Virus record (IMG/VR): IMGVR_UViG_3300013111_000114
Coordinates: 1-36,234 of that record
Source: a virus
Strand: one strand, 5' to 3'
Length of the DNA stretch: 36,234 nt
The position numbers and the translations under genes were made by a program. Shown one piece after another: positions 3 to 33,429 of this stretch. Under the pieces are notes generated by a model. The model was not told the origin of the DNA, did no database searches, and worked only from the letters and a program-made list of their open reading frames with translations. The stretch's first letter is position 1; the number at the start of each line of letters is the position of its first letter.

Positions 3-545
3 ACAACTACAACTTGGAATACTTCAACAAGCACAAGTCATAGTACAACTACAACATGGTCTACAAGCAAAAGTACAACTACAACTTGGAGTACTTCAAA
101 AGCAACAACTACAACTTGGAAAACTTCACAATCAACAACTACAACTTATACTACAACTTGGTCTACAAGTAAATCTACAACTACAACTTGGTCTACAAAT
201 ACATCTACAACTACAACTTGGAATACTTCACAATCAACAACTACAACTTGGAATACTTCAACAAATACAAATCATAGTACAACTACAACATGGTCTACAA
301 GTAAATCTACAACTACAACTTGGAGTACAAGTAAAAGTACAACTACAACATTTAATACTTCCCAGAGCACAAATCATATTACAACTACAACCTGGGTTAC
401 TTCAAAAAGTACAACAACTACTTGGTCTACTTCTAAAAGCACAACAACAACATTTAACACTTCAAAAAGCACTACTACAAATTGGACAACAACTTGGAGT
501 ACAAATAAAAATACAAATACTAACAAATCTACAACAACAACATTT
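3..545 (+). repeat. 30-bp tandem repeat array within the fibre gene
   Basis: The core ACAACTACAACTTGG recurs with a period of mostly 30 bp, with shorter spacings in places, coding for the decapeptide STTTTWSTSK and variants. Codon use is dominated by ACA, ACT and AGT, so the repeat is conserved in DNA as well as in protein. The array decays toward the 3' end, where TTT replaces TGG and the spacing becomes irregular. Such arrays can change length by recombination or polymerase slippage. They are also prone to assembly collapse, so the true copy number may differ. Confidence 0.8.
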
Positions 546-581
546 ATAACACAAAGAACAACTAGTTTTTATATAGGGTAA
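3..581 (+). CDS. Thr/Ser/Trp-repeat fibre-like protein, 3' end (partial)
   Basis: The frame is open from the window edge to a TAA at 579-581, so only the C-terminal ~192 residues are seen. Nearly all of it is a decapeptide repeat of the form STTTTWSTSK. Position 6 is Trp, sometimes Phe or Tyr, and the variable positions are filled by Asn, Gln, Lys and His. The protein ends TTTFITQRTTSFYIG. There is no Cys and almost no acidic residue. Low-complexity Thr-rich repeats of this kind occur in phage fibre or adhesin-type proteins, so an extended virion fibre is the best guess. I see no catalytic or chaperone domain. The gene lies directly before a sugar-modification cassette, which could mean the hydroxyl-rich repeat is glycosylated; that is inference. 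It could also be a secreted or host-surface protein. The reading frame and repeat are certain; the function is not. Confidence 0.65.
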   Translation, partial: TTTTWNTSTSTSHSTTTTWSTSKSTTTTWSTSKATTTTWKTSQSTTTTYTTTWSTSKSTTTTWSTNTSTTTTWNTSQSTTTTWNTSTNTNHSTTTTWSTSKSTTTTWSTSKSTTTTFNTSQSTNHITTTTWVTSKSTTTTWSTSKSTTTTFNTSKSTTTNWTTTWSTNKNTNTNKSTTTTFITQRTTSFYIG

Positions 582-608
582 TTTATTTTTGATTTTGGTG
601 AATTGGTA

Positions 609-622
609 TTATATGTATAGTT
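609..622 (+). promoter_or_regulatory. candidate promoter motif before the glycan cassette
   Basis: TTATATGTATAGTT lies 55 bases before the ATG at 664 in the only real gap (582-663) preceding the cassette. It matches 12 of 14 positions of the copy at 28846 and resembles the motif found in nine other gaps of this window. If real, it would drive the whole overlapping gene string 664-10332. The region is very AT-rich, so a chance match is possible. Confidence 0.3.
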
Positions 623-663
623 ATAGTATTAATATTGTTACATTACATAAGGAGTTATAAGAA

Positions 664-1560
664 ATGGAAATGTTTAATAAAAAAGTTGCCAAAGAAAGAA
701 TTGGACCTTTAAAGAAACATGAGAGTTTAGATATGTTACGTGAAGTAGAAATCTATTTTCTGAAACAAATGAAAAAATTCAAGACTGAAGTAAGTTATGA
801 TGTTATCGCACAAGAAATGCCATATTTTAAGACGTTAGGTTATACTGAATACGCTACTAATTTCATAATACAGCCATTAAATCTTGAAATAAGATTACGT
901 CAAATGCAACACGCATACGATGATAATGTATCTGATGTATTAGATTTTTCAGGGTATCTCAAAGTTAATATAGAAGAAAAAGTAGCTAATAAATATCAGA
1001 GTCGAGAAACAAATGTTAATGATTTTGAAAATGTAGGACATCTTGTAGTGTTAGCTGGGTCTAATAAGTTAAAAGAGAACGTATGTTTGAATAAGTTAAA
1101 ACTTATACGTGATACACATGATAGTGATGTTTATTTTAAACCTCATCCGATTACTACTCATGCTGTAATAGGTGAATTAAAAGATTTATTTGGACCTGAT
1201 AGAATTTTACCACGTGATATAGATATGTATCATTTTTTAACAAATGCACATAAAATTTATACGACTCATATAAGCGAGTCAGCAATTTACTCGGCTGTAT
1301 TAGATAAAGAAATAGAGCCGATTGATGTGTACAATAAAGTTCATCAGGGGTCATTTTATCACATAAATAGATTTTTATTTGAATGTCAAGCGAATGGAGT
1401 AGATTGTAAAGAATGGATAAATCGAGTTTTCTCCAGTTACAAATCGGGTGTATTTAATCCTGGAATAGATGTAAATTGGAAGGATAAGATGGATTCATAT
1501 CTAAAGTACATTCACGATGAGAGGAAAAAATTTAGTACTTGGTTTGTAGATAAAAAATGA
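664..1560 (+). CDS. capsule polysaccharide/Kdo-transferase-like GT-B protein
   Basis: This 298-residue protein resembles the C-terminal half of GT-B capsule-synthesis and Kdo/sialic acid transferases. The stretch DVYFKPHP (K159-P-H161-P) is followed, about 40 residues on, by HISESAIYSA (S204-E-S206), a pattern typical of the nucleotide-sugar pocket in KpsC/KpsS-like proteins. The N-terminal 110 residues are helical and unassigned. The start is set by AAGGAG about nine bases upstream. It is the first gene of a string of overlapping sugar genes that ends in kdsA and kdsB, which fits use of CMP-Kdo or a related CMP-sugar as donor. The motifs are visible; family membership is recalled from pattern; donor and acceptor are inferred. 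It could equally be a pseudaminic or sialic acid transferase. Confidence 0.55.
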   Translation: MEMFNKKVAKERIGPLKKHESLDMLREVEIYFLKQMKKFKTEVSYDVIAQEMPYFKTLGYTEYATNFIIQPLNLEIRLRQMQHAYDDNVSDVLDFSGYLKVNIEEKVANKYQSRETNVNDFENVGHLVVLAGSNKLKENVCLNKLKLIRDTHDSDVYFKPHPITTHAVIGELKDLFGPDRILPRDIDMYHFLTNAHKIYTTHISESAIYSAVLDKEIEPIDVYNKVHQGSFYHINRFLFECQANGVDCKEWINRVFSSYKSGVFNPGIDVNWKDKMDSYLKYIHDERKKFSTWFVDKK

Positions 1561-1634: not shown

Positions 1635-1793
1635 ATGAATGAACGTATGAAAGAAAATATGTTATCTAAAATAGATGATATAGATATAATTGAATCACCA
1701 TTAATTCCGTGTGGTAGATATGGGTTATGTGATAACTTCTTACCTGACGATGTACTATCAATTTTTATAATACTAAGATATGACCTTAGATAA
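1635..1793 (+). CDS. 52-residue ORF, unknown (possible remnant)
   Basis: The frame starts at an ATG three bases after the previous mini-ORF stops and runs into the next gene, overlapping it by 14 bases. The product is lysine- and aspartate-rich at its N-terminus, then reads IPCGRYGLCDNFLPDDVLSI. DNFLPDDV is reminiscent of the start of phage 2-oxoglutarate oxygenases, but no catalytic HxD or second His is present, so no function can be claimed. Together with 1557-1631 it fills the gap between two glycosyltransferases and may be what is left of a deleted gene. Confidence 0.25.
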   Translation: MNERMKENMLSKIDDIDIIESPLIPCGRYGLCDNFLPDDVLSIFIILRYDLR

Positions 1794-2523
1794 ATTAGTT
1801 TTATATACAATGTGTTTTCAAGGTAATGAAAACAGGTTTACGCAATTTACCCAGAGTAATTTAATGTGCGGGTCACACACATTTTCGTCTGAATATAGAG
1901 ACACCTTAAAAGAAAAGTCATTTTTATTTGATGATACACATGATAATATTTCAACAATGAATAAATGGATGGGAGATTTAACGGGGTTATATTGGGTATG
2001 GAAAAATACCAATGATGAGTTTGTAGGCGTTAATCAGTATAGACGTAAATGGTTAATACGTGAAGATTTAAAATTAAGTGATAATACTTTATACGTCACA
2101 TCTCCACTAAGATTTCATAAAACAATTAAAGGTGAGGTTGTAGATGAAACGTTATACGGTCAATATAGAATGTGTCATACAGATATAGGTATACGGATAT
2201 TAAAGGATGCAGTTTTTCAAAAACGAATTGATATACCGCAACACGTATTGGATTTATTGGACACTCAAATTGATTTTTATCCGTTTAATATGTTCTTTAC
2301 TCACAGAGATGTTTTTAATAAAGTATGTGAAGTACTTTTTGAGATTTTATTTGAATTATATAACGGTACTCGGTATTTATTACCATATGTTCAACCATCA
2401 GACCAAACACGAATGTTGGCATTCCTATCAGAACGGTTATTAAGTATTATGTATACACATCATAACTATTTTTTCGGAACATCAGAAGTTGTTCCTGTAA
2501 TGTGGAAGAGAGTAGATAAATGA
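1780..2523 (+). CDS. DUF4422-type glycosyltransferase
   Basis: The 247-residue protein carries the hallmarks of the DUF4422 capsular-glycan glycosyltransferase family. These are LTGLYWVWKN at about residues 67-76 and VGVNQYRR ending at R88-R89, where the family usually has GxxHYRR; His is Gln here. The C-terminal region contains FNMFF and FLSERLLSIM, which match the conserved FxM and SERL segments of this family. It probably transfers a hexose to a phage- or host-borne glycan in the cytoplasm. The stop codon overlaps the next start by four bases (ATGA), so translation is probably coupled. The start overlaps the small ORF before it. The His-to-Gln change is the only oddity seen. Confidence 0.75.
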   Translation: MTLDKLVLYTMCFQGNENRFTQFTQSNLMCGSHTFSSEYRDTLKEKSFLFDDTHDNISTMNKWMGDLTGLYWVWKNTNDEFVGVNQYRRKWLIREDLKLSDNTLYVTSPLRFHKTIKGEVVDETLYGQYRMCHTDIGIRILKDAVFQKRIDIPQHVLDLLDTQIDFYPFNMFFTHRDVFNKVCEVLFEILFELYNGTRYLLPYVQPSDQTRMLAFLSERLLSIMYTHHNYFFGTSEVVPVMWKRVDK

Positions 2524-3671
2524 AAATACGAGAAACCCCTTTAAAAGTATTAGGACCTGTAGGAGATGAAACAGATATTCAGGCTATCAGAGAAGTAATT
2601 CTTAGTGGATGGTGGGGTAAAGGTCCGAAAGTCCAAGAGTTTGAAGAGAAGTTTGCAAAACTTGTAGGAGCAAAACACGCCATATCAGTAACGAGTAATT
2701 CTCATGGACAAGATTTGGTAATGAAAGCGATGGGATTCACTGGAATAGATGTTATTAATCCAACAATGTCGTTTACAGCAACCGCTCAAATTCCTTTATG
2801 GAATGGGTGCTCAACTAATATAGTAGATGTGGATAAAGTAAATTTGAATATAACTGCGGATGAAGTAGAAAAATGGAAGAAACCGAATTCAGAAGTTTTA
2901 ATAGCTGTAAATATGGCGGGAGTACCCGCACCAATAGATGAGATTAGAAAAGTGTTTGGGGGATTTATTATTGAAGATTGCGCACATAGTTGTTATACAG
3001 ATGGTGCCGGAACAAAGGGTGACGTGGCAGTATGGTCATTTCAAGCAGTAAAGACGATGCCGATTGGAGACGGAGGTATGATAACACTCAATGATGACGT
3101 GTTAGCTAAAAAGATTCGTGAAATGTTATGGTTTGGTGTAACGTCTACATGGAGTAGAGCATCTGGAAAAGATGGTACAACACCAGGATATGCATGGGAT
3201 TATCAAATTGATACTCTCGGTTACAAGTATTATATGATTGATATAATAGCAGCACTTGGGTTATCTCAGATGAAGAAGTTAGACGGGTTCTTAAAAACAA
3301 GACGACATATTCAAGAACGCTATAATAATGAATTATCAGATACATTCGAGAGACCACCTTATTCCGATACTGTGCAGTATTATAGTACACGATTAGATGA
3401 AAAAGTATATACTTCGGGTAATTCTACGGATACTATTGGGAGAAATGAATTAGTAGATTATCTCTCAGATAAAAAAATACACACGTCGGTACATTTTAAA
3501 CCACTACATCAGTATAGTTTATTACAACAAGATAGAGAGTATCCGGTAGCTGATACTGAATGGAAAAGGTTAATAACTTTACCATGTTTTAATAATATGA
3601 CTGATGATGATATTAGTTATGTAGTATATTGGGTGAATAAATTTATAGACGACGAGTACACTAATGTCTAA
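2520..3671 (+). CDS. DegT/DnrJ/EryC1/StrS sugar aminotransferase
   Basis: This is a 383-residue PLP-dependent aminotransferase acting on nucleotide-linked ketosugars. Visible features are the N-terminal GWWGKGPKVQEFEEKFAK, the strand IIEDCAHS (the Asp that contacts the pyridine nitrogen), and WSFQAVKTMPIGDGGM with the Schiff-base lysine K178. The C-terminus has VHFKPLHQYSLL, the usual HFxPxH segment. Length is normal for the family. It would supply an amino-deoxy sugar, with the reductase encoded directly downstream (8-base overlap) as a likely pathway partner. The sugar and nucleotide carrier cannot be read from sequence. Confidence 0.9.
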   Translation: MKIRETPLKVLGPVGDETDIQAIREVILSGWWGKGPKVQEFEEKFAKLVGAKHAISVTSNSHGQDLVMKAMGFTGIDVINPTMSFTATAQIPLWNGCSTNIVDVDKVNLNITADEVEKWKKPNSEVLIAVNMAGVPAPIDEIRKVFGGFIIEDCAHSCYTDGAGTKGDVAVWSFQAVKTMPIGDGGMITLNDDVLAKKIREMLWFGVTSTWSRASGKDGTTPGYAWDYQIDTLGYKYYMIDIIAALGLSQMKKLDGFLKTRRHIQERYNNELSDTFERPPYSDTVQYYSTRLDEKVYTSGNSTDTIGRNELVDYLSDKKIHTSVHFKPLHQYSLLQQDREYPVADTEWKRLITLPCFNNMTDDDISYVVYWVNKFIDDEYTNV

Positions 3672-4356
3672 ACTTATTTTAGGAGATGGTATATTAGGGT
3701 CGGAACTACAACATATAACTGGGTGGGATTATATAAGTAGAAAACGAGATGGTATAGATTTTACTAATATAGAGTCTTACGTAGATTATCTTATTGATTA
3801 TGATGAGATTATAAACTGCATTGGGTATACGAATACGTATGATGTTAATAAAAGAAATAGTTGGAGTATAAATTATAAGTCAGTTGTGGAGTTAGTAGAT
3901 TATCTTGTTGATAAGGATATAAAACTTGTCCACTTTTCTACTGATTATGTATATACTAATTCAGAACCGTTGACATCAGAAAACGATGTACCTATACATG
4001 GTAATAATTGGTATAGTTATACAAAACTATTAGCTGACGCTTATATAGAATTAAAGTTAGATGACTATCTTATTATAAGAGGAACTCATAAACAAAAACC
4101 GTTTAAATACGATGATGCTTATGTTAATTTGATAGGAAATTTTGATTATATTGACAATATGGCGAAGATTTACAACGATTTGATAGAATCCGATTCCACA
4201 GGTATATATAATGTGGGTACAGAATTAAAGAGTATGTTTTGTTTAGCTAAATTGAGTAAAAGTGATGTTATTCCGATTAATGAACGTGACAATCGTTCAA
4301 TGCCTAAAGATGTCAGTATGGATTTAACGAAATTAGGGGAGTTTTATGAAAAATAA
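3664..4356 (+). CDS. RmlD-like NAD(P)-dependent sugar reductase/epimerase (SDR)
   Basis: This 230-residue extended-SDR protein has the nucleotide-binding GxGxxG as G7-D-G9-I-L-G12. The catalytic set is in HFSTDYVY (S92, T93) and YSYTK (Y117, K121), the arrangement of dTDP-4-dehydrorhamnose reductase RmlD. It is about 60 residues shorter than typical RmlD (near 290), with a reduced C-terminal substrate domain. Its sugar specificity may therefore differ, or it may be a minimal phage version. It overlaps its neighbours by 8 and 11 bases. The likely role is reduction or epimerisation of a 4-keto nucleotide sugar in the same pathway as the aminotransferase upstream. Confidence 0.8.
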   Translation: MSKLILGDGILGSELQHITGWDYISRKRDGIDFTNIESYVDYLIDYDEIINCIGYTNTYDVNKRNSWSINYKSVVELVDYLVDKDIKLVHFSTDYVYTNSEPLTSENDVPIHGNNWYSYTKLLADAYIELKLDDYLIIRGTHKQKPFKYDDAYVNLIGNFDYIDNMAKIYNDLIESDSTGIYNVGTELKSMFCLAKLSKSDVIPINERDNRSMPKDVSMDLTKLGEFYEK

Positions 4357-5218
4357 CACGGTGGGAATACTTGCACTTTTTAGAAATGAAGCCCATATAT
4401 TAGATGAGTGGATACAACATTATATTAAACAAGGTATTGACCATTTTTACCTTGTCAATAACAATAGTGACGATGAATATCAAGTAATTATAGATAAATA
4501 TCGGTCGATTATAACATTAAAAGAAGAACCGGATATACTAAATCAATCGGGAAAGATTGTATCAGCAGGTACAGAGATTCAAGAGAAATCGTACAATAAC
4601 TTTTTACATGATATAGAAACTGAGTGGTTACTTACGTGTGATTTAGATGAATTTGTATATACTAAAAATGGGTATACTAACATAAAGGATTTGATTGAGA
4701 AACGTGGTGATGAATTTGACCAAATATTGATGGAATTAAAAATGTTTACGTCAAATGACATCATACAACAACCTAAAAGTGTAGTAGAATCGTTTACTCG
4801 CAGGATAACTCTTGATATACATAAACATACATTACCCAAAAGTATAACGAGAACTAATATGATACGTCACATTCAAGCGCATTTATGTTATTTACATGAA
4901 GGCGGAATTACAGTAGATGATACAATAGATTTTAGTACTGATTTCTTTGGAACGTGTACTAATAAAGGACCAGAATTTCATAAGGTGAGGAATATGTTTA
5001 CATTAGGCGATGAAACTGATATTAGTAATGCGTATATTGTTTGTAATCACTACCCTATACAAAGTAAGGAGTGGTTTTTCAATGTTAAGGCTAAACGTGG
5101 GATTTCAAGTTGGCCTGGAAATTATGTAGATACAGTTGAAGAATATTTTAGAGATTATTGGGATAAACTCGAAGGTAGAACCCAAATTGATGATTTTGAA
5201 TTGAAGGAGATATCATGA
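4346..5218 (+). CDS. GT92-type glycosyltransferase, copy 1
   Basis: The 290-residue protein opens with VGILALFRNEAHILDEWIQH and YLVNNNSDDEY, the nucleotide-sugar fold of the GT92/Glyco_tranf_2_4 family. It carries the metal-binding DXD motif in CDLDEFVY (D99, D101). The C-terminal CNHYPIQSKEWF and KxKRG are also family-typical. It probably transfers a hexose from a nucleotide donor. A diverged paralogue lies at 5934, separated only by a radical SAM gene, so the pair arose by duplication or serial capture. It overlaps the preceding gene by 11 bases and the following one by four. Confidence 0.85.
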   Translation: MKNNTVGILALFRNEAHILDEWIQHYIKQGIDHFYLVNNNSDDEYQVIIDKYRSIITLKEEPDILNQSGKIVSAGTEIQEKSYNNFLHDIETEWLLTCDLDEFVYTKNGYTNIKDLIEKRGDEFDQILMELKMFTSNDIIQQPKSVVESFTRRITLDIHKHTLPKSITRTNMIRHIQAHLCYLHEGGITVDDTIDFSTDFFGTCTNKGPEFHKVRNMFTLGDETDISNAYIVCNHYPIQSKEWFFNVKAKRGISSWPGNYVDTVEEYFRDYWDKLEGRTQIDDFELKEIS

Positions 5219-5931
5219 AGGATACAGGATTATTATCTATTGAAATTGGAAGAGGATGTAATTTAGCTAATGTTCATACGAGATGTCCGAGTGCTGATGT
5301 AGATAGGTATGGTAAATTAGATACATCTAATCCTATTACAGATGATGAGATTTTAAAAATGATATTCACATTATATAATGAAATGGAGTTCAATGGACAA
5401 ATCGCATTTCACTATTATAATGAACCATTAATGTATGCGAATCGTATGTTTGGAATTATAGATAAAGTTAGGGATAAATTCCCAGAGTCTAAATTCTTTT
5501 TAAACACTAATGGTACATATATAGAAAAACATTTAGATAAACTTCATTACTTTAGTACCATTATTTTAAGTAATTATGATAATAAGGATTGGGAATGGAT
5601 AAGAGAATATTTACATCCGAGGTGTTTTTTATGGGTTCAATCTGGAAGTTTGGACTTACGTAAAGATAATTTCACTAAATACACTAAATCTGACCCATGT
5701 GGTAGACCGTATAAGGAACTTGTAGTAGATTATTATGGGAATGGACATTTATGTTGTATGGACTGGAAAGGTGTAGTAGATTTAGGGAACGTAGTAACGG
5801 ATGGATTTAAAAGTGTAGTCGATAAGTTTGTTAAGATTAGAGAAACTATTTCGTGTGACCCGATGAGTAAAGATGCGCCTATAATATGTCAAAAGTGTGC
5901 AAACAAAACACCAAACAGGACAGTAGTATAA
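5215..5931 (+). CDS. radical SAM/SPASM-like protein with an altered cluster motif
   Basis: The 238-residue protein looks like a compact radical SAM enzyme with a C-terminal SPASM-like region. The N-terminal strand is followed by GRGCNLANVHTRCP, with C15, H21 and C24. The usual CxxxCxxC is therefore not present: the spacing is C-x5-H-x2-C. After a TIM-barrel-like middle (FLNTNGTYI, HYYNEPLMY), the C-terminus has C162, C180-C181, C214, C225 and C228, including LCCMDWKGVVDLGNV. These fit auxiliary iron-sulfur ligands of SPASM proteins. It sits between two GT92 genes, so a sugar or peptide-side-chain modification is plausible but unproven. Whether the His replaces a cluster ligand is unknown. Confidence 0.65.
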   Translation: MKDTGLLSIEIGRGCNLANVHTRCPSADVDRYGKLDTSNPITDDEILKMIFTLYNEMEFNGQIAFHYYNEPLMYANRMFGIIDKVRDKFPESKFFLNTNGTYIEKHLDKLHYFSTIILSNYDNKDWEWIREYLHPRCFLWVQSGSLDLRKDNFTKYTKSDPCGRPYKELVVDYYGNGHLCCMDWKGVVDLGNVVTDGFKSVVDKFVKIRETISCDPMSKDAPIICQKCANKTPNRTVV

Positions 5932-5933
5932 AC

Positions 5934-6755
5934 ATGGATAAACATTTTTTATCTGTAATGGCTATTTTCAAGAACGAGAGCCACATCTTAGATGAGTGGT
6001 TGACTCATTATATTAATGAAGGTGTAGACCATTTTTATTTAATTGACCACAATAGCACAGATAATTATTTGGATGTAATTCATAAATATCTTGATAAAAT
6101 CAGTTTGATAAAGGTCATCGACGAATCTCCGCAAATTTCGGCATATAACAATGTTTTTAATGTTGTACAATCAGAATGGACGTTAATTTGTGACTTGGAT
6201 GAATTTGTTTATTCTCGTAACGGGTATGATACTATAAGTAATTTTTTAGATAATAGAGGAAAAGAGTTTAATCAAATAATTATTCCATCGGTAGATTTTC
6301 ATAATGGTGGACATAAAGAACAACCCGATAGCGTAGTAGACTCGTTTACCGTTAGAACGTCGTATTATAAAAAGATGTATTCTTTAACAAAATCGATAGT
6401 TAGAAATAAAAGTGTAGACAGATTGAACGTGCATGGACATAGAGTAGTGGGTAAAACTTTCAATGGCGACTTGACGGAATACGTATCGTATAGTAAAATT
6501 TCACCTTTGACTTCTCTCGAAGTTCACCGGAAAATAGACGAGAGTGATTTAGAATCTACATATTTGAAATGTAACCATTACAGATTTCAGAGTGAGGATT
6601 ATTATTTTAATAATAAATCAAAAAGAGGAGATATTATGTTTAATAATGATGCTCAAGAGAAAATAAATTATTGGGAACACAACTGGATTCATGTACAAGT
6701 ACAACGTACAGTAGATGATGTTGAATTAATAGAAAAAAAGACGATTGTAATATGA
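5934..6755 (+). CDS. GT92-type glycosyltransferase, copy 2
   Basis: This 273-residue protein is a paralogue of the 4346 gene. It has MAIFKNESHILDEWLTHYIN, FYLIDHNSTDNY and the DXD motif in CDLDEFVY (D87, D89), and it ends with the same CNHYRFQSEDYYF and KSKRG segments. The frame is open further upstream to an ATG at 5886. The ATG at 5934 aligns with the start of copy 1 and lies two bases after the previous stop, so I prefer it. The two copies differ in the substrate-binding middle (residues 100-200), which suggests different acceptors or donors. The stop overlaps the next gene by four bases. Confidence 0.8.
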   Translation: MDKHFLSVMAIFKNESHILDEWLTHYINEGVDHFYLIDHNSTDNYLDVIHKYLDKISLIKVIDESPQISAYNNVFNVVQSEWTLICDLDEFVYSRNGYDTISNFLDNRGKEFNQIIIPSVDFHNGGHKEQPDSVVDSFTVRTSYYKKMYSLTKSIVRNKSVDRLNVHGHRVVGKTFNGDLTEYVSYSKISPLTSLEVHRKIDESDLESTYLKCNHYRFQSEDYYFNNKSKRGDIMFNNDAQEKINYWEHNWIHVQVQRTVDDVELIEKKTIVI

Positions 6756-8188
6756 GAGTACTATTAGTAAACCCACCCTTTTATAGATTGTTAGGGTCAC
6801 ATTATAACGCTAATTCGCTCGGAATAGCATATATAGCATCATATTTAAATACTCACGGTCATGATGCGTGGGTGTATAACGCTGATTTTCAAGGGGAGAA
6901 TAAATTTAAAAAATACGGTGTAATCCATACAAAAGAAAGTTTTATAAGTTATCAAGACTATTTTAATAACCCTAATCATAATATTTGGGAAGAGGTAGTA
7001 GCGAGTATTGAAAAATTTGAACCCGATTATGTAGGATACACATCTTATACAGCTAATGTGAGTTCAATTAATATTCTTTCTAATAAATTAAAAAGACGTA
7101 TGCCTAATGTGAAACAAGTTATTGGAGGAGTTCACGCCACTCTTGATAGTAATATACTAAACGAATTGTCAGCTATCGATTATAGTATACAACGTGAAGG
7201 TGAAAGTGCTATGTTATCATTAGTAAATGGAGAACCCGTTAATACTATTTCAGGAGTATTGAGTAGAGATGGTAGGTCTATTATTAACATAGGAGATGCA
7301 GATGTTAATAAGAATATTGACGATTTACCATTTCCGGAAAGAGAAAAGTTTTGGGGGATGACGGAAAAAGAGAAATCTTTGGTTGATGTTTCATATATAT
7401 GTACAATTAGGGGATGCCCGTATAGATGTAATTATTGTGCATCCCCATTTCATTGGAAAAGAGATAAAACACAATACCGTTCACCTCAATCCGTGATAGA
7501 CGAAATGAAATACTTAAAAAAACACCACTGGAATGGGTCAGAGTATGATTTTAGTGCATCTGGTAATATTGATATGAAGTCTAATCTAATTATTAAGGAC
7601 AACTCGAAATTGTATTTTGTAGATGATGTATTTACTATTAAGAAGCCGAGAGTTAAACAGATATTACGTATGATGATTGATGAAGATATTAATATGCTGT
7701 GGAAATGTGAAGCCAGAACTGACCATTTAGACGAAGAGATGGCAGGACTTATGAGAGATGCTAAATGTCTACGAGCTAAGTTAGGGTTTGAGTCTGGTAG
7801 TGATAGGATACTAAAACAGATACAAAAAGATGAAACTGTTGAAGATATGATTCGCGGTGCTAAAATATTAAAAGACGCGGGAGTCCCGTTTACAGCATAT
7901 TTCATGGCAGGATTCCCAGGTGAAACTGATGACGATATTAAAAAGACGATTGAACTTGCTCAAAAAATAGAAGCTGATTATTATGTACTATCAATACTTT
8001 CTCCTTATTACGGTACAAAGTTATATTTCGATATGATGGATATGGGGTACGAATTGGATAAACAACCTTGGGAATACTTTTACCATCATTCGGGAGAATT
8101 AATGGTAAATAACACTATATCAAATGGTATGATGAAAGAGTTTTTAAGTTTGAATCAACTGAACAACACGGAGGATAATTATGTCTAA
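6752..8188 (+). CDS. B12-binding-domain radical SAM enzyme
   Basis: The 478-residue protein has the two-domain layout of the BchE/HpnJ-like class. An N-terminal Rossmann-like cobalamin-binding domain begins MRVLLVNPPF and includes IGGVHATLDS near residue 125, without the DxHxxG base-on motif. A radical SAM core follows, with RGCPYRCNYC giving C222, C226 and C229 (CxxxCxxC). Further core segments are WKCEARTDHL, KLGFESGSDRIL and YFMAGFPGETDDDI. Such enzymes methylate or rearrange unactivated carbons. In a sugar cassette, C-methylation or dehydration of a sugar is possible; this is inference. It overlaps its neighbours by 4 and 8 bases. Cobalamin would have to come from the host or environment. 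Confidence 0.85.
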   Translation: MRVLLVNPPFYRLLGSHYNANSLGIAYIASYLNTHGHDAWVYNADFQGENKFKKYGVIHTKESFISYQDYFNNPNHNIWEEVVASIEKFEPDYVGYTSYTANVSSINILSNKLKRRMPNVKQVIGGVHATLDSNILNELSAIDYSIQREGESAMLSLVNGEPVNTISGVLSRDGRSIINIGDADVNKNIDDLPFPEREKFWGMTEKEKSLVDVSYICTIRGCPYRCNYCASPFHWKRDKTQYRSPQSVIDEMKYLKKHHWNGSEYDFSASGNIDMKSNLIIKDNSKLYFVDDVFTIKKPRVKQILRMMIDEDINMLWKCEARTDHLDEEMAGLMRDAKCLRAKLGFESGSDRILKQIQKDETVEDMIRGAKILKDAGVPFTAYFMAGFPGETDDDIKKTIELAQKIEADYYVLSILSPYYGTKLYFDMMDMGYELDKQPWEYFYHHSGELMVNNTISNGMMKEFLSLNQLNNTEDNYV

Positions 8189-8294
8189 TACTAATAGAGA
8201 AAAAGTTAATGTTATTACAACCGTTGGGTTACATCCTGCCGACTGTACTGGAAACATATTTAATGAGGAAATATGTATAATATACAATTTATAA
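8181..8294 (+). CDS. 37-residue ORF with a good ribosome site, unknown
   Basis: GGAGG sits six bases before the ATG, and the frame of 37 codons bridges the radical SAM gene and kdsA, overlapping each. The peptide reads MSNTNREKVNVITTVGLHPA and then DCTGNIFNEEICIIYNL. It resembles no family I know. The strong ribosome site on so short a frame suggests either the stub of a deleted gene or a coupling peptide that delivers ribosomes to kdsA, whose ATG at 8273 lies inside it. Confidence 0.3.
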   Translation: MSNTNREKVNVITTVGLHPADCTGNIFNEEICIIYNL

Positions 8295-9058
8295 AAAATA
8301 ACTCATTATTCGTTATAGCTGGTCCATGTGTTATAGAGAGTAGAGAACATACTTTAAAAATGGCAATAGAATTGTCTAAAATATCAGAGAGAGTTGATAT
8401 ACCTATAATATTTAAAAGTTCATTTGATAAAGCTAATAGGTCGTCGATTTCATCGTATAGGGGGGTCGGCATAGATGATGGGTTAGAAATACTGAATGAT
8501 GTTAAAGAAATAGTGGACATTCCGATAACAACTGATATACATGAAACTCATCATGCATCTAAAGTAGGTGAAGTAGTAGATATAATACAAATACCCGCAT
8601 TTTTAAGTAGACAAACTGATATTATAGTAGAGGCATCTAAGACGGGAAAGATTATAAATCTAAAGAAAGGTCAATTCTTATCACCATACGATATGAAAAA
8701 CGTGGTAGAGAAAGCTGTATTCTCTGGGTGTACAGATTTAGTAATAACAGAGAGAGGAACTCAATTTGGTTATAACAATCTTGTATCAGATATGAGAGCT
8801 ATACCAATTATGCAAGAATATGGATTTCCTGTTGTATTTGATGCTACACATAGTAATCAACTTCCGGGAAAAGGTGGAATGAGAGATATGATACCAACTC
8901 TTGCAAAAGCGGCAGTAGCTTCTGGAGTAAATGGATTATTTTTCGAGGTACATGATAATCCACAAATGGCAAAGTCTGATTCATCTACACAATGGCCACT
9001 TGATAAATTTGAAGAAATGTTAATACAATTAAAGAGAATACATGAGGTTTTATTATGA
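8273..9058 (+). CDS. kdsA: 3-deoxy-D-manno-octulosonate 8-phosphate synthase
   Basis: KdsA condenses phosphoenolpyruvate with arabinose 5-phosphate to give Kdo-8-phosphate, the first committed step of Kdo synthesis. Family signatures run through the protein: FVIAGPCVIES, FKSSFDKANRSS with SYRG, VDIIQIPAFLSRQTD, NLKKGQFLSPYDM, TERGTQFGYNNLVSDM, DATHSNQLPG and FFEVHDNPQMAKSD. C19, H193, E225 and D236 correspond to the four metal ligands of the metal-dependent class (Aquifex type), rather than the Asn-bearing metal-free E. coli type. At 261 residues it is slightly short at the N-terminus. GAGG lies about seven bases before the start. The gene overlaps kdsB by four bases. No KdsD isomerase or KdsC phosphatase is seen, so these would come from the host or another part of the genome. 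Confidence 0.93.
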   Translation: MYNIQFIKNNSLFVIAGPCVIESREHTLKMAIELSKISERVDIPIIFKSSFDKANRSSISSYRGVGIDDGLEILNDVKEIVDIPITTDIHETHHASKVGEVVDIIQIPAFLSRQTDIIVEASKTGKIINLKKGQFLSPYDMKNVVEKAVFSGCTDLVITERGTQFGYNNLVSDMRAIPIMQEYGFPVVFDATHSNQLPGKGGMRDMIPTLAKAAVASGVNGLFFEVHDNPQMAKSDSSTQWPLDKFEEMLIQLKRIHEVLL

Positions 9059-10332
9059 AAATAGGAATAATACCAGCAAGATTAAATTCTACTCGATTTC
9101 CGAATAAAATATTAGAAGATATTGACGGATTGCCTATGGTAGTTCGAGTAGCAAAACAAGTAGAACAATCCACAATGTTAGACAGGGTTATAGTAGCAGT
9201 AGACGATAGTAGTACTTACAATATTGTAAAAAACTATAACATTGAAGCTCAAATGACATTAGTAGACCACCAATCAGGTACAGATAGAGTAGCGGAAGTT
9301 TCTAAACAATTTGATGACGATGACATAATTATCAATATACAAGGTGATGAGCCGTTAATAAATCCTGGAATGGTTGATAAATTTATTTCTGTATTCGATG
9401 ATAGTGAAGTTCAAATGGCTACAATAGGTAGTACTCATTTAAGTATGAATGATTTACAAGACAGAAACGTAGTGAAGGTATGTGTAGATGAAAATATGTA
9501 CGCTGACAATTTTACACGTATTTTATGGAGTGGGAATACTATAAATAAACTTGGAGGTCTGTATAAACATATTGGGATATATGGGTTTAGACAAAAAACA
9601 TTAAAGGAATATGCTTTATTAGAACCAACGCAAAGAGAAATAGTTAAACGTTTGGAACAAATGCGGGCATTAGATAATAACATAAAAATAAAAGTGTTAA
9701 TAACAGATTACGATAGTATATCAGTAGACATAAAAGATGATTTGGAAAAAGTAAAAAAGTCATTAAAAGTAGAGAGTAAACAAGCAGAATATGATGGATA
9801 TTTAGGATATTATAAAAATATATATAAAAAGAAATACAATTCAGATATAAATCAAAATGCAACTCTGATGTTAAAGAAAGTATTAGGCGATGTTTTTAAA
9901 AAAGAGGATACAAAAACTCTATTAGATTACGGATGTGGGCAAGGTATTCAATACTCAGAAGCAAAGGTTCACGAATTATGGGGAATTAAAGAAGTTGAAT
10001 GCTATGACCCTGCAATAGAACAATATTCTATGAAGCCAGATAAATCTAAGTTTTTTGACGCTATTATATGTATAGATGTCATGGAACATATACCTGAGAG
10101 AAGTGTAAATGATATTCTACAAGATATTTTTGCCTATAAAACTAACTTGGTGTTTTTTAGTATTTCAACTGTATTAGCAAAGGCTAAATTGCCAGATGGT
10201 AGTAACGCACATTGTACGGTAAAGTCTGCTGATTGGTGGTTGAAAAAATTAAAAGTTTTTAAGCGGAAATATAAACAAACTAAAATATTATTAAAAGTAA
10301 AATCGAAATTGTACGAAATAGTGAATTCATAA
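9055..10332 (+). CDS. kdsB: CMP-Kdo synthetase fused to a class I SAM methyltransferase
   Basis: Residues 1 to about 238 are a complete KdsB (3-deoxy-manno-octulosonate cytidylyltransferase). Visible motifs are IIPARLNSTRFPNK, DHQSGTDRVAEV, INIQGDEPLI, KHIGIYGFR, RLEQMRAL and SVDIKDDLEKVKK. It would activate Kdo with CTP. From about residue 245 a second domain follows, with LLDYGCGQG (about 290-298, SAM-binding), YDPAIEQY, AIICIDVMEHIPE and SNAHCTVKSADWW. This is a methyltransferase type I have seen near phage and bacterial LPS genes. There is no stop or frame change between the domains. KdsB alone is about 250 residues, so at 425 this is a fusion. Coupling CMP-Kdo synthesis to methylation could yield a methylated sugar; the methyl acceptor is unknown. 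It is the last gene of the cassette. Confidence 0.88.
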   Translation: MKIGIIPARLNSTRFPNKILEDIDGLPMVVRVAKQVEQSTMLDRVIVAVDDSSTYNIVKNYNIEAQMTLVDHQSGTDRVAEVSKQFDDDDIIINIQGDEPLINPGMVDKFISVFDDSEVQMATIGSTHLSMNDLQDRNVVKVCVDENMYADNFTRILWSGNTINKLGGLYKHIGIYGFRQKTLKEYALLEPTQREIVKRLEQMRALDNNIKIKVLITDYDSISVDIKDDLEKVKKSLKVESKQAEYDGYLGYYKNIYKKKYNSDINQNATLMLKKVLGDVFKKEDTKTLLDYGCGQGIQYSEAKVHELWGIKEVECYDPAIEQYSMKPDKSKFFDAIICIDVMEHIPERSVNDILQDIFAYKTNLVFFSISTVLAKAKLPDGSNAHCTVKSADWWLKKLKVFKRKYKQTKILLKVKSKLYEIVNS

Positions 10333-32331: not shown

Positions 32332-33429
32332 ATGTCGATACAAGACGACTTGGCTAACACATTAGCCACTTCCTTGAATAAGAAATTTAAGGATTACAAA
32401 GTCGCCCACTTCTTGGGTGGCGCAAACGCAACGCCAACAGATATTAAAGAATTTATTTCAACTGGATCAACAATGTTAGATTTGGCAATTTCTAATAGAC
32501 CAGATGGTGGAATCGCAGTAGGTAGAATCACAGAATTAAATGGACTTGAAAGTAGTGGGAAATCATTAGTTGGTGCACACCTACTTGCTGAAACTCAAAA
32601 GAAGGGTGGAGTTGCTGTTTATATAGATACTGAAACTGCTGTGAGTGAGGATTTCTTAGAGGTGATTGGAGTGGATATAAGTAATATGTTATATTTACAT
32701 TTAGAAACTACAGAAGATATATTTGAAGCCATTGAAGAAATCATAACGAAAGTTAGGGAATCAGATAAAGATAGATTAGTAACTATATTAGTTGATTCAC
32801 TGGCGGCTGCTTCTACCAAGGTGGAATTAAATGCTGACTTTGATAAAGATGGTTGGGCTACAAGTAAGGCAATCATCATTTCTAAAGCTATGAGAAAGAT
32901 TACTCAAATGATTGGTAGGCAGAGGGTTGCTCTTGTATTTACTAATCAATTAAGAGTAAAATTAGGAGCTATGTTTGGAGATCCATATACTACTTCAGGC
33001 GGTAAGGCTCTTCCATTTCACGCTTCAACTCGTATTAGATTAAAGAATAAAGGTCAAATTAAAGATAAGAAAAAGAATGTAATTGGTATGACCATTTTGG
33101 CTCAAGTTGTTAAAAATAGATTGGGTCCACCTTTGAGGAAAGCAGAGTTTCCATTATACTTTGAGAGTGGTGTAGATGATGATGGCAGCTGGTTAGTAGT
33201 AATGAAAGAGCATGGTATAGTAAAAACCAGCGGCGCTTGGTATTCTATGACAGACCACAATGGTGATGAAGTTAAGTTCCAGTCGAAGGAATGGGCTGAT
33301 AAATTAAAAGATGAAGATTTTAAAGCTCATTGTTATAAACTAATTTGTGATAAAGTGATATTGAAGTATGAAAAGGCTGACTTGGGTATAGATGATGTAA
33401 TCCAAACTGATGAGGTTTTGGGTGACTAA
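32332..33429 (+). CDS. uvsX: RecA-like recombinase UvsX
   Basis: This 365-residue strand-exchange ATPase has Walker A as GLESSGKS with K77 and S78, VAVYIDTETAVSEDF after it, and Walker B in VTILVDSLAAAS. The DNA-binding loop region is GRQRVALVFTNQLRVKLGAM followed by YTTSGGKALPFHASTRIRLK. Length and order match T4 UvsX (391 residues). It would load onto gp32-coated DNA for recombination-dependent replication. TAGGAG precedes the start, and the structured RNA element lies just upstream, so its translation may be controlled separately from gp32. Its end overlaps the possible start of the nuclease gene by 20 bases. Confidence 0.95.
   Translation: MSIQDDLANTLATSLNKKFKDYKVAHFLGGANATPTDIKEFISTGSTMLDLAISNRPDGGIAVGRITELNGLESSGKSLVGAHLLAETQKKGGVAVYIDTETAVSEDFLEVIGVDISNMLYLHLETTEDIFEAIEEIITKVRESDKDRLVTILVDSLAAASTKVELNADFDKDGWATSKAIIISKAMRKITQMIGRQRVALVFTNQLRVKLGAMFGDPYTTSGGKALPFHASTRIRLKNKGQIKDKKKNVIGMTILAQVVKNRLGPPLRKAEFPLYFESGVDDDGSWLVVMKEHGIVKTSGAWYSMTDHNGDEVKFQSKEWADKLKDEDFKAHCYKLICDKVILKYEKADLGIDDVIQTDEVLGD

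Follow-up and report, generated by a model that had tools for sequence, protein, structure and literature searches.

The left end of the IMG/VR record IMGVR_UViG_3300013111_000114, a linear sequence of 36,234 bp analysed over its full length (hereafter, the window), raises the question of whether a phage encodes both a Thr-rich fibre and the enzyme that decorates it. A repeat-containing ORF in frame 3 (codons 3..578, stop 579..581; 192 aa) runs open off the left end of the record, and sugar-related genes follow it on the same strand:

3..581, plus strand: last 192 aa of a Thr-rich repeat protein whose gene lacks its 5' end here; the protein terminates in ..TTFITQRTTSFYIG
582..663, plus strand: intergenic gap of 82 nt; by eye, a ribosome site resembling AAGGAG precedes the ATG of orf664
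664..1560, plus strand: orf664, a GT-B glycosyltransferase of the KpsC/WbbB/KrkA fold group, matching phrog_26179; conserved partner of Thr-rich proteins
1780..8188, plus strand: variable sugar genes (DUF4422, DegT aminotransferase, RmlD-like, two GT92-like, SPASM, B12 radical SAM)
8273..9058, plus strand: KdsA, Kdo-8-phosphate synthase (TIGR01362, 372.2 bits; curated equivalog cut-off, 314)
9055..10332, plus strand: KdsB, a CMP-Kdo synthetase carrying a fused class I methyltransferase domain (Methyltransf_23; TIGR00466, 192.6 bits; cut-off, 155.2)

We consider it reasonably probable that orf664 is a dedicated CMP-sugar O-glycosyltransferase, the sugar here probably being Kdo, that acts on a Thr-rich fibre of the tail region. 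The proposal builds on the repeat, its adjacency to the enzyme across divergent phages, the fold similarity, the KxHP motif and the Kdo genes. On this reading, the window ORF would encode the C-terminal end of a long protein built of Thr-rich repeats and belonging to the tail-fibre region, and orf664 would take a CMP-activated ulosonic sugar and probably link it to the Thr/Ser hydroxyls of the repeats. In the window phage, the sugar would probably be Kdo, perhaps methylated, as the cluster also contains the genes for KdsA and the KdsB-methyltransferase; most relatives, with no Kds genes near the pair, would draw on a host CMP-sugar.

The repeat ORF is dominated by Thr (95 residues, 49%) and Ser (38, 20%), with 14 Trp, 14 Asn and 11 Lys. 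The sequence-only reading had described a mucin-like decapeptide, STTTTWSTSK, with regularly spaced aromatic residues. The Thr/Ser density and the periodicity hold, with 11 aromatic pairs at +10, whereas 10,000 composition-preserving shuffles averaged 1.9 and never exceeded 8, but the repeat is a degenerate 10/4-residue one rather than a uniform decapeptide: only 5 of the 14 x-TTTT-[WFY] units are exact STTTTWSTSK, and the aromatic spacing, mostly 10, includes phase shifts of 4 and 14. Mucins and serine-rich-repeat adhesins likewise contain Ser/Thr-rich tandem repeats, the adhesins with a dedicated glycosyltransferase adjoining. The window repeat differs from both by its regular aromatics, its phage context and the absence of proline (0/192), so that the likeness to mucins is one of Thr/Ser richness and does not extend to a PTS domain. 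At the DNA level, Tandem Repeats Finder detected arrays with periods including 30, 102 and 132 (scores up to 443). Searches of the repeat ORF against Pfam and PHROG families returned no match, with no recognised fibre domain or C-terminal chaperone, and tblastn against named phages with the low-complexity filter on was likewise negative. In a published survey of low-complexity regions, the residues most enriched in phages were Ala, Gly and Pro, not Thr (PMC6821194). The closest relative of the window repeat protein, L049, represented by 263 aa, has the C-terminus ..TTFITQRTTSFYIV. Recovery of the missing 5' part, suggested in the sequence-only reading, did not succeed: none of the records with an identical uvsX (L134-L136) extends to the repeat gene.

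To what enzyme group does orf664 belong? Its AlphaFold2 model (21 sequences; pLDDT 90, pTM 0.88) displays the GT-B fold of the GT99/GT107/GT140 group. The top Foldseek match is KpsC (8fux, E 8.6e-5), and the first 11 rows of the VIA-align output are all KpsC or WbbB (Z 9.4-10.3), headed by 6mgc/6mgb (Z 10.3, 228-232 residues, 4.0 Å). Polysialyltransferase 5wc6 (Z 9.3) and KrkA (9.2) score similarly, and an unrelated GT-B enzyme attains 9.4, so that the donor cannot be read from the fold by itself. Comparison of the orf664 family profile with that of 11 PF05159 proteins (from 11 of the 13 PF05159 loci) yielded a probability of 95% and an E-value of 2.7e-8. More direct searches were negative: PF05159 (Capsule_synth) matched no window protein at the cut-off of 20 bits, the 21-sequence orf664 alignment had no match among PDB sequences, and no PF07922 (GT52) relatives were found for a profile comparison, the control genomes being likewise unmatched.

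Across 12 divergent members of the family, D46, K110-Y111, G132, N134, K159-x-H161-P162, E205 and G262 are invariant; K159, H161 and P162 are also invariant in the 21-sequence alignment. The latter residues form the (K/R)xHP motif, which binds CMP and is common to sialyltransferases and retaining Kdo transferases (PMC12887879), and in the profile alignment a KpsC-like protein has the KY motif as well. In retaining Kdo transferases, the Asp of a QxxxD motif serves double displacement (PMC9587256). QxxxD is present in 11/11 of the PF05159 comparison proteins, whereas both orf664 alignments show a G[S/T/H]N loop with no conserved Asp. Thus, orf664 has the GT-B fold and KxHP in common with the retaining beta-Kdo transferases KpsC (GT107), WbbB (GT99) and KrkA (GT140), but differs from them in lacking the QxxxD nucleophile, in having a Thr-rich phage protein as its neighbour and in its low identity (8-14% in structural alignment). 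Because QxxxD has no counterpart, orf664 falls outside GT99, GT107 and GT140 on present evidence, and the motifs fix neither donor nor stereochemistry. Nevertheless, orf664 may use the same donor as these enzymes, and we infer an inverting mechanism with D46 as the catalytic base. Counted along the sequence, D46 precedes H161 by 115 residues; in KrkA, the distance from Glu102, the counterpart considered for the general base, to His227 is 125 residues (PMC12887879).

The genes downstream bear on the choice of sugar. In L049, the enzyme of which is 81% identical to orf664, the genes run repeat, orf664, a further ORF, KdsA, KdsB-methyltransferase, a small protein and the sheath, whereas L051 and L053 have the enzyme followed by a cupin-like ORF (by eye), a methyltransferase and KdsA; the methyltransferase recurs beside orf664 homologs. 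It is conceivable, if unlikely, that the pair O-glycosylates protein with a different CMP-sugar (of the sialic, pseudaminic or legionaminic type) or another nucleotide sugar, with KdsA and KdsB serving elsewhere. Such a donor would agree with the absence of QxxxD, the polysialyltransferase score and the weak, sub-cut-off matches of KVP40.0256 to GT52 (E 5e-4) and of Lullwater gp42 to PF05159 (16.5 bits, E 0.006; cut-off 20), but sits poorly with KdsA and KdsB that exceed their curated cut-offs and lie downstream of the pair in L049. Enrichment of CMP-sugar synthetases (PF02348) was not significant (4/50 module records versus 0/33 controls, p 0.15), the records being fragments; since 46 of the 50 module records have no PF02348, a host CMP-sugar donor must be assumed for them.

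The sequence-only reading had assigned the glycosylation to the adjacent sugar cassette as a whole. Its genes are real, yet orf664 alone travels with the repeat: the 1780..8188 block (DegT, GT92-like, radical SAM) was sought without a match in the nearest relative, L049, and probably lies outside the conserved module. The entire cassette was accordingly rejected as a module, given that only orf664 recurs downstream of the repeat, barring a weak KdsB-methyltransferase match in L015-L017. The comparison also gave some weak matches to rnh, which is no sugar gene, and Pfam, on 85 of 127 downstream ORFs from 42 loci, revealed families of many kinds, none with more than 3 members.

The association of orf664 with Thr-rich ORFs was assessed from both sides. 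A viral-contig search with the window repeat gave 43 loci, 39 of which contain the enzyme as detected by an iterated HMM, L027 with no more than 21 bits. Among the remaining four, L006 and L026 break off within the repeat ORF, and no enzyme occurs in the available stretch of L013 or L041; in the latter two, proteins of ~2,200 aa and 30% Thr (L013:7365-13910 and L041:5499-12353) adjoin baseplate-wedge-like proteins. The reciprocal search, with an alignment of ten orf664-type proteins as the query, produced 81 loci, namely the best 80 of 280 viral-contig relatives and one contig from genome_contigs that is labelled as a Flavobacteriales MAG, of which 78 had enough upstream sequence to be tested; 8 enzyme sequences are identical between the two partly overlapping sets. 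A Thr-rich ORF (27-53% Thr) ends within 300 nt upstream of the enzyme in 74/78 loci and within 1.3 kb in all 78. Because near-identical contigs recur, we also counted clusters at 70% identity, obtaining 14/16 and 16/16, respectively. When the remaining ORFs of these loci (200 aa or longer) are taken instead of the enzyme, a Thr-rich ORF lies upstream in 19/258 (300 nt) and 26/258 (1.3 kb), and most of those 19 are a methyltransferase/Hint-like gene between two Thr-rich ORFs. Around uvsX, a control that samples the surroundings of replication genes rather than tail regions, the corresponding values are 2/483 and 3/483. In the exceptional loci L015-L017/L076-L078 and L124, a methyltransferase-like gene fills the gap between the Thr-rich ORF and the enzyme.

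In most of the loci tested, the genes flanking the Thr-rich ORF have matches among tail-fibre, collagen-like, S74, central tail fibre J or baseplate families; those of L052 and L060 yielded no tail-family match. These neighbours back, without proving, the prediction that the Thr-rich protein is probably a virion fibre. The claim that a Thr/Ser-rich protein and a dedicated glycosyltransferase form a recurrent module is thus borne out, by proximity and by the tail-fibre or baseplate neighbours of most relatives examined.

Outside the viral contigs, tblastn identified distant orf664 homologs in phages of Vibrio and Caulobacter, such as Cr30 gp255 and Lullwater gp42, and in one phage of Stenotrophomonas. 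A Thr-rich ORF precedes the homolog in 6 of the 7 named-phage records examined, from Vibrio and Caulobacter phages (KVP40.0254, 6E35.1a p0320, Cr30 gp254, Lullwater gp41, Quill_5.2 gp041 and an unannotated ORF in F86), with a small coiled-coil-like ORF separating the two genes in the Vibrio phages. DLP_6 is the counter-example, its large upstream gene having 10-15% Thr and, by eye, a Hint-like end. Lullwater is classed in Autographiviridae, and the pair therefore spans different tail types, occurring in neighbourhoods of myoviruses, of a podovirus group and probably of siphoviruses. As to annotation, the 202-aa Thr-rich ORF of F86 (L048), which starts from 6948, is missing, small hypothetical genes being called there instead, and that of 6E35.1a is labelled 'putative cell wall mannoprotein'.

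In pelagimyophages, a host recognition cluster between VrlC and the neck gene gp14 combines tail fibres with glycosyltransferases, an arrangement like the one described here, and these enzymes have been interpreted as modifiers of the host O-chain, in a paper the main text of which does not contain the word 'threonine' (PMC7029224). By extension, orf664 could alter host LPS or capsule against superinfection, with the Thr-rich protein as an unglycosylated fibre and the genes being neighbours because both serve host recognition, a role compatible with the action of the fold relatives KpsC and WbbB on polysaccharide and with the variable sugar genes that come after orf664. We regard this alternative as rather improbable, considering that the enzyme shows a specific association with the Thr-rich gene (78/78 versus 26/258 other ORFs within 1.3 kb) and that the pair is found in neighbourhoods of myoviruses, a podovirus group and probably siphoviruses. 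Still less credible is a repeat selected as a beta-structured shaft for the beta propensity of Thr, with orf664 as a non-catalytic folding or assembly factor: short strands every ~10 residues in an unreliable AlphaFold model of the repeat (pLDDT 41) and the Hint-like or S74-like C-termini of some relatives would suit it, but the invariance of KxHP, D46 and E205 over 12 divergent sequences makes a dead enzyme unlikely.

Several full-length relatives of the repeat protein consist of a leader of ~12-25 aa and then repeats almost to the N-terminal end, and their C-termini vary, some being ..TxFY as in the window, some Hint-like and one S74-like (L004; 18 bits, under the cut-off of 22). The Hint-like ends of three Thr-rich proteins (L007:3512-6967, L022:5001-7952 and L058:4544-5665; ..FANG[IL]LTHN or ..TYN near the C-terminus) suggest self-cleavage. 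At L089:3521-4573, L073:3562-4653 and in related loci, two Thr-rich ORFs enclose a gene for a protein that combines a weak methyltransferase match with a Hint-like C-terminus, and 26 ORFs of the loci match it; at a guess, the regular K/R of the repeat might be the target of this protein. Measured stop to stop, the complete Thr-rich ORFs upstream of the enzyme (51 loci) are between 168 and 1,854 aa long. The proposal that the DNA repeats let fibre length vary finds partial support in ORFs of 741, 773 and 813 aa alongside enzymes at least 99% identical, although collapse of repeats in short-read assembly could produce the same differences and is a serious alternative.

Glycosylation of phage virions as such is already known. 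It is established for mycobacteriophages, with glycans on the C-termini of capsid and tail-tube proteins (Freeman 2023, cited in PMC12619734); going by these descriptions alone, that system resembles the one proposed here in its glycosylated virion proteins and differs in the sites. Maf of C. botulinum, which O-glycosylates flagellin, can transfer Kdo too (PMC11339370). Its likeness to orf664 would lie in the chemistry, a CMP-ulosonic sugar placed onto Ser/Thr of a filament protein, and unlike Maf, orf664 is phage-encoded and would have a repeat acceptor. Within open-access full texts, the scope of our search (subscription papers and preprints lay outside it), we found no description of the orf664/Thr-rich pair as enzyme and substrate.

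The dedicated O-glycosyltransferase reading thus provides a concrete enzyme-substrate hypothesis for tail-fibre-region phage glycosyltransferases hitherto read as host-surface modifiers, and it reaches cultured phages that infect laboratory Caulobacter. If it is true, some phage fibres would be densely charged glycoproteins, with consequences for adsorption and for stability; glycoengineering would also gain a useful tool, a compact ulosonyltransferase for Ser/Thr that has a repeat as its acceptor. More tentatively, the pair may represent a widespread phage protein-glycosylation system, in which a new KpsC-like-fold family devoid of QxxxD coats tail fibres built of Thr repeats with Kdo or an acidic sugar related to it; proteins would then carry O-Kdo natively, and the number of repeats could tune both the length and the charge of the fibre.

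Among named phages, the closest counterpart of the window uvsX (32332-33426) is that of Microcystis phage Mel-JY01, at only 52%, so the lineage of the window phage is poorly sampled. Immediately ahead of the DUF4422 gene (1780), a 53-aa ORF at 1635-1793 has, by eye, the look of an enzyme remnant. Finally, the gap before orf664 contains an AT-rich 34-nt element (586-619), possibly a promoter or terminator, copies of which with 7 mismatches occur at L134 11661, L135 10998 and L136 20043, compared to 0 matches at up to 8 mismatches across five shuffles.
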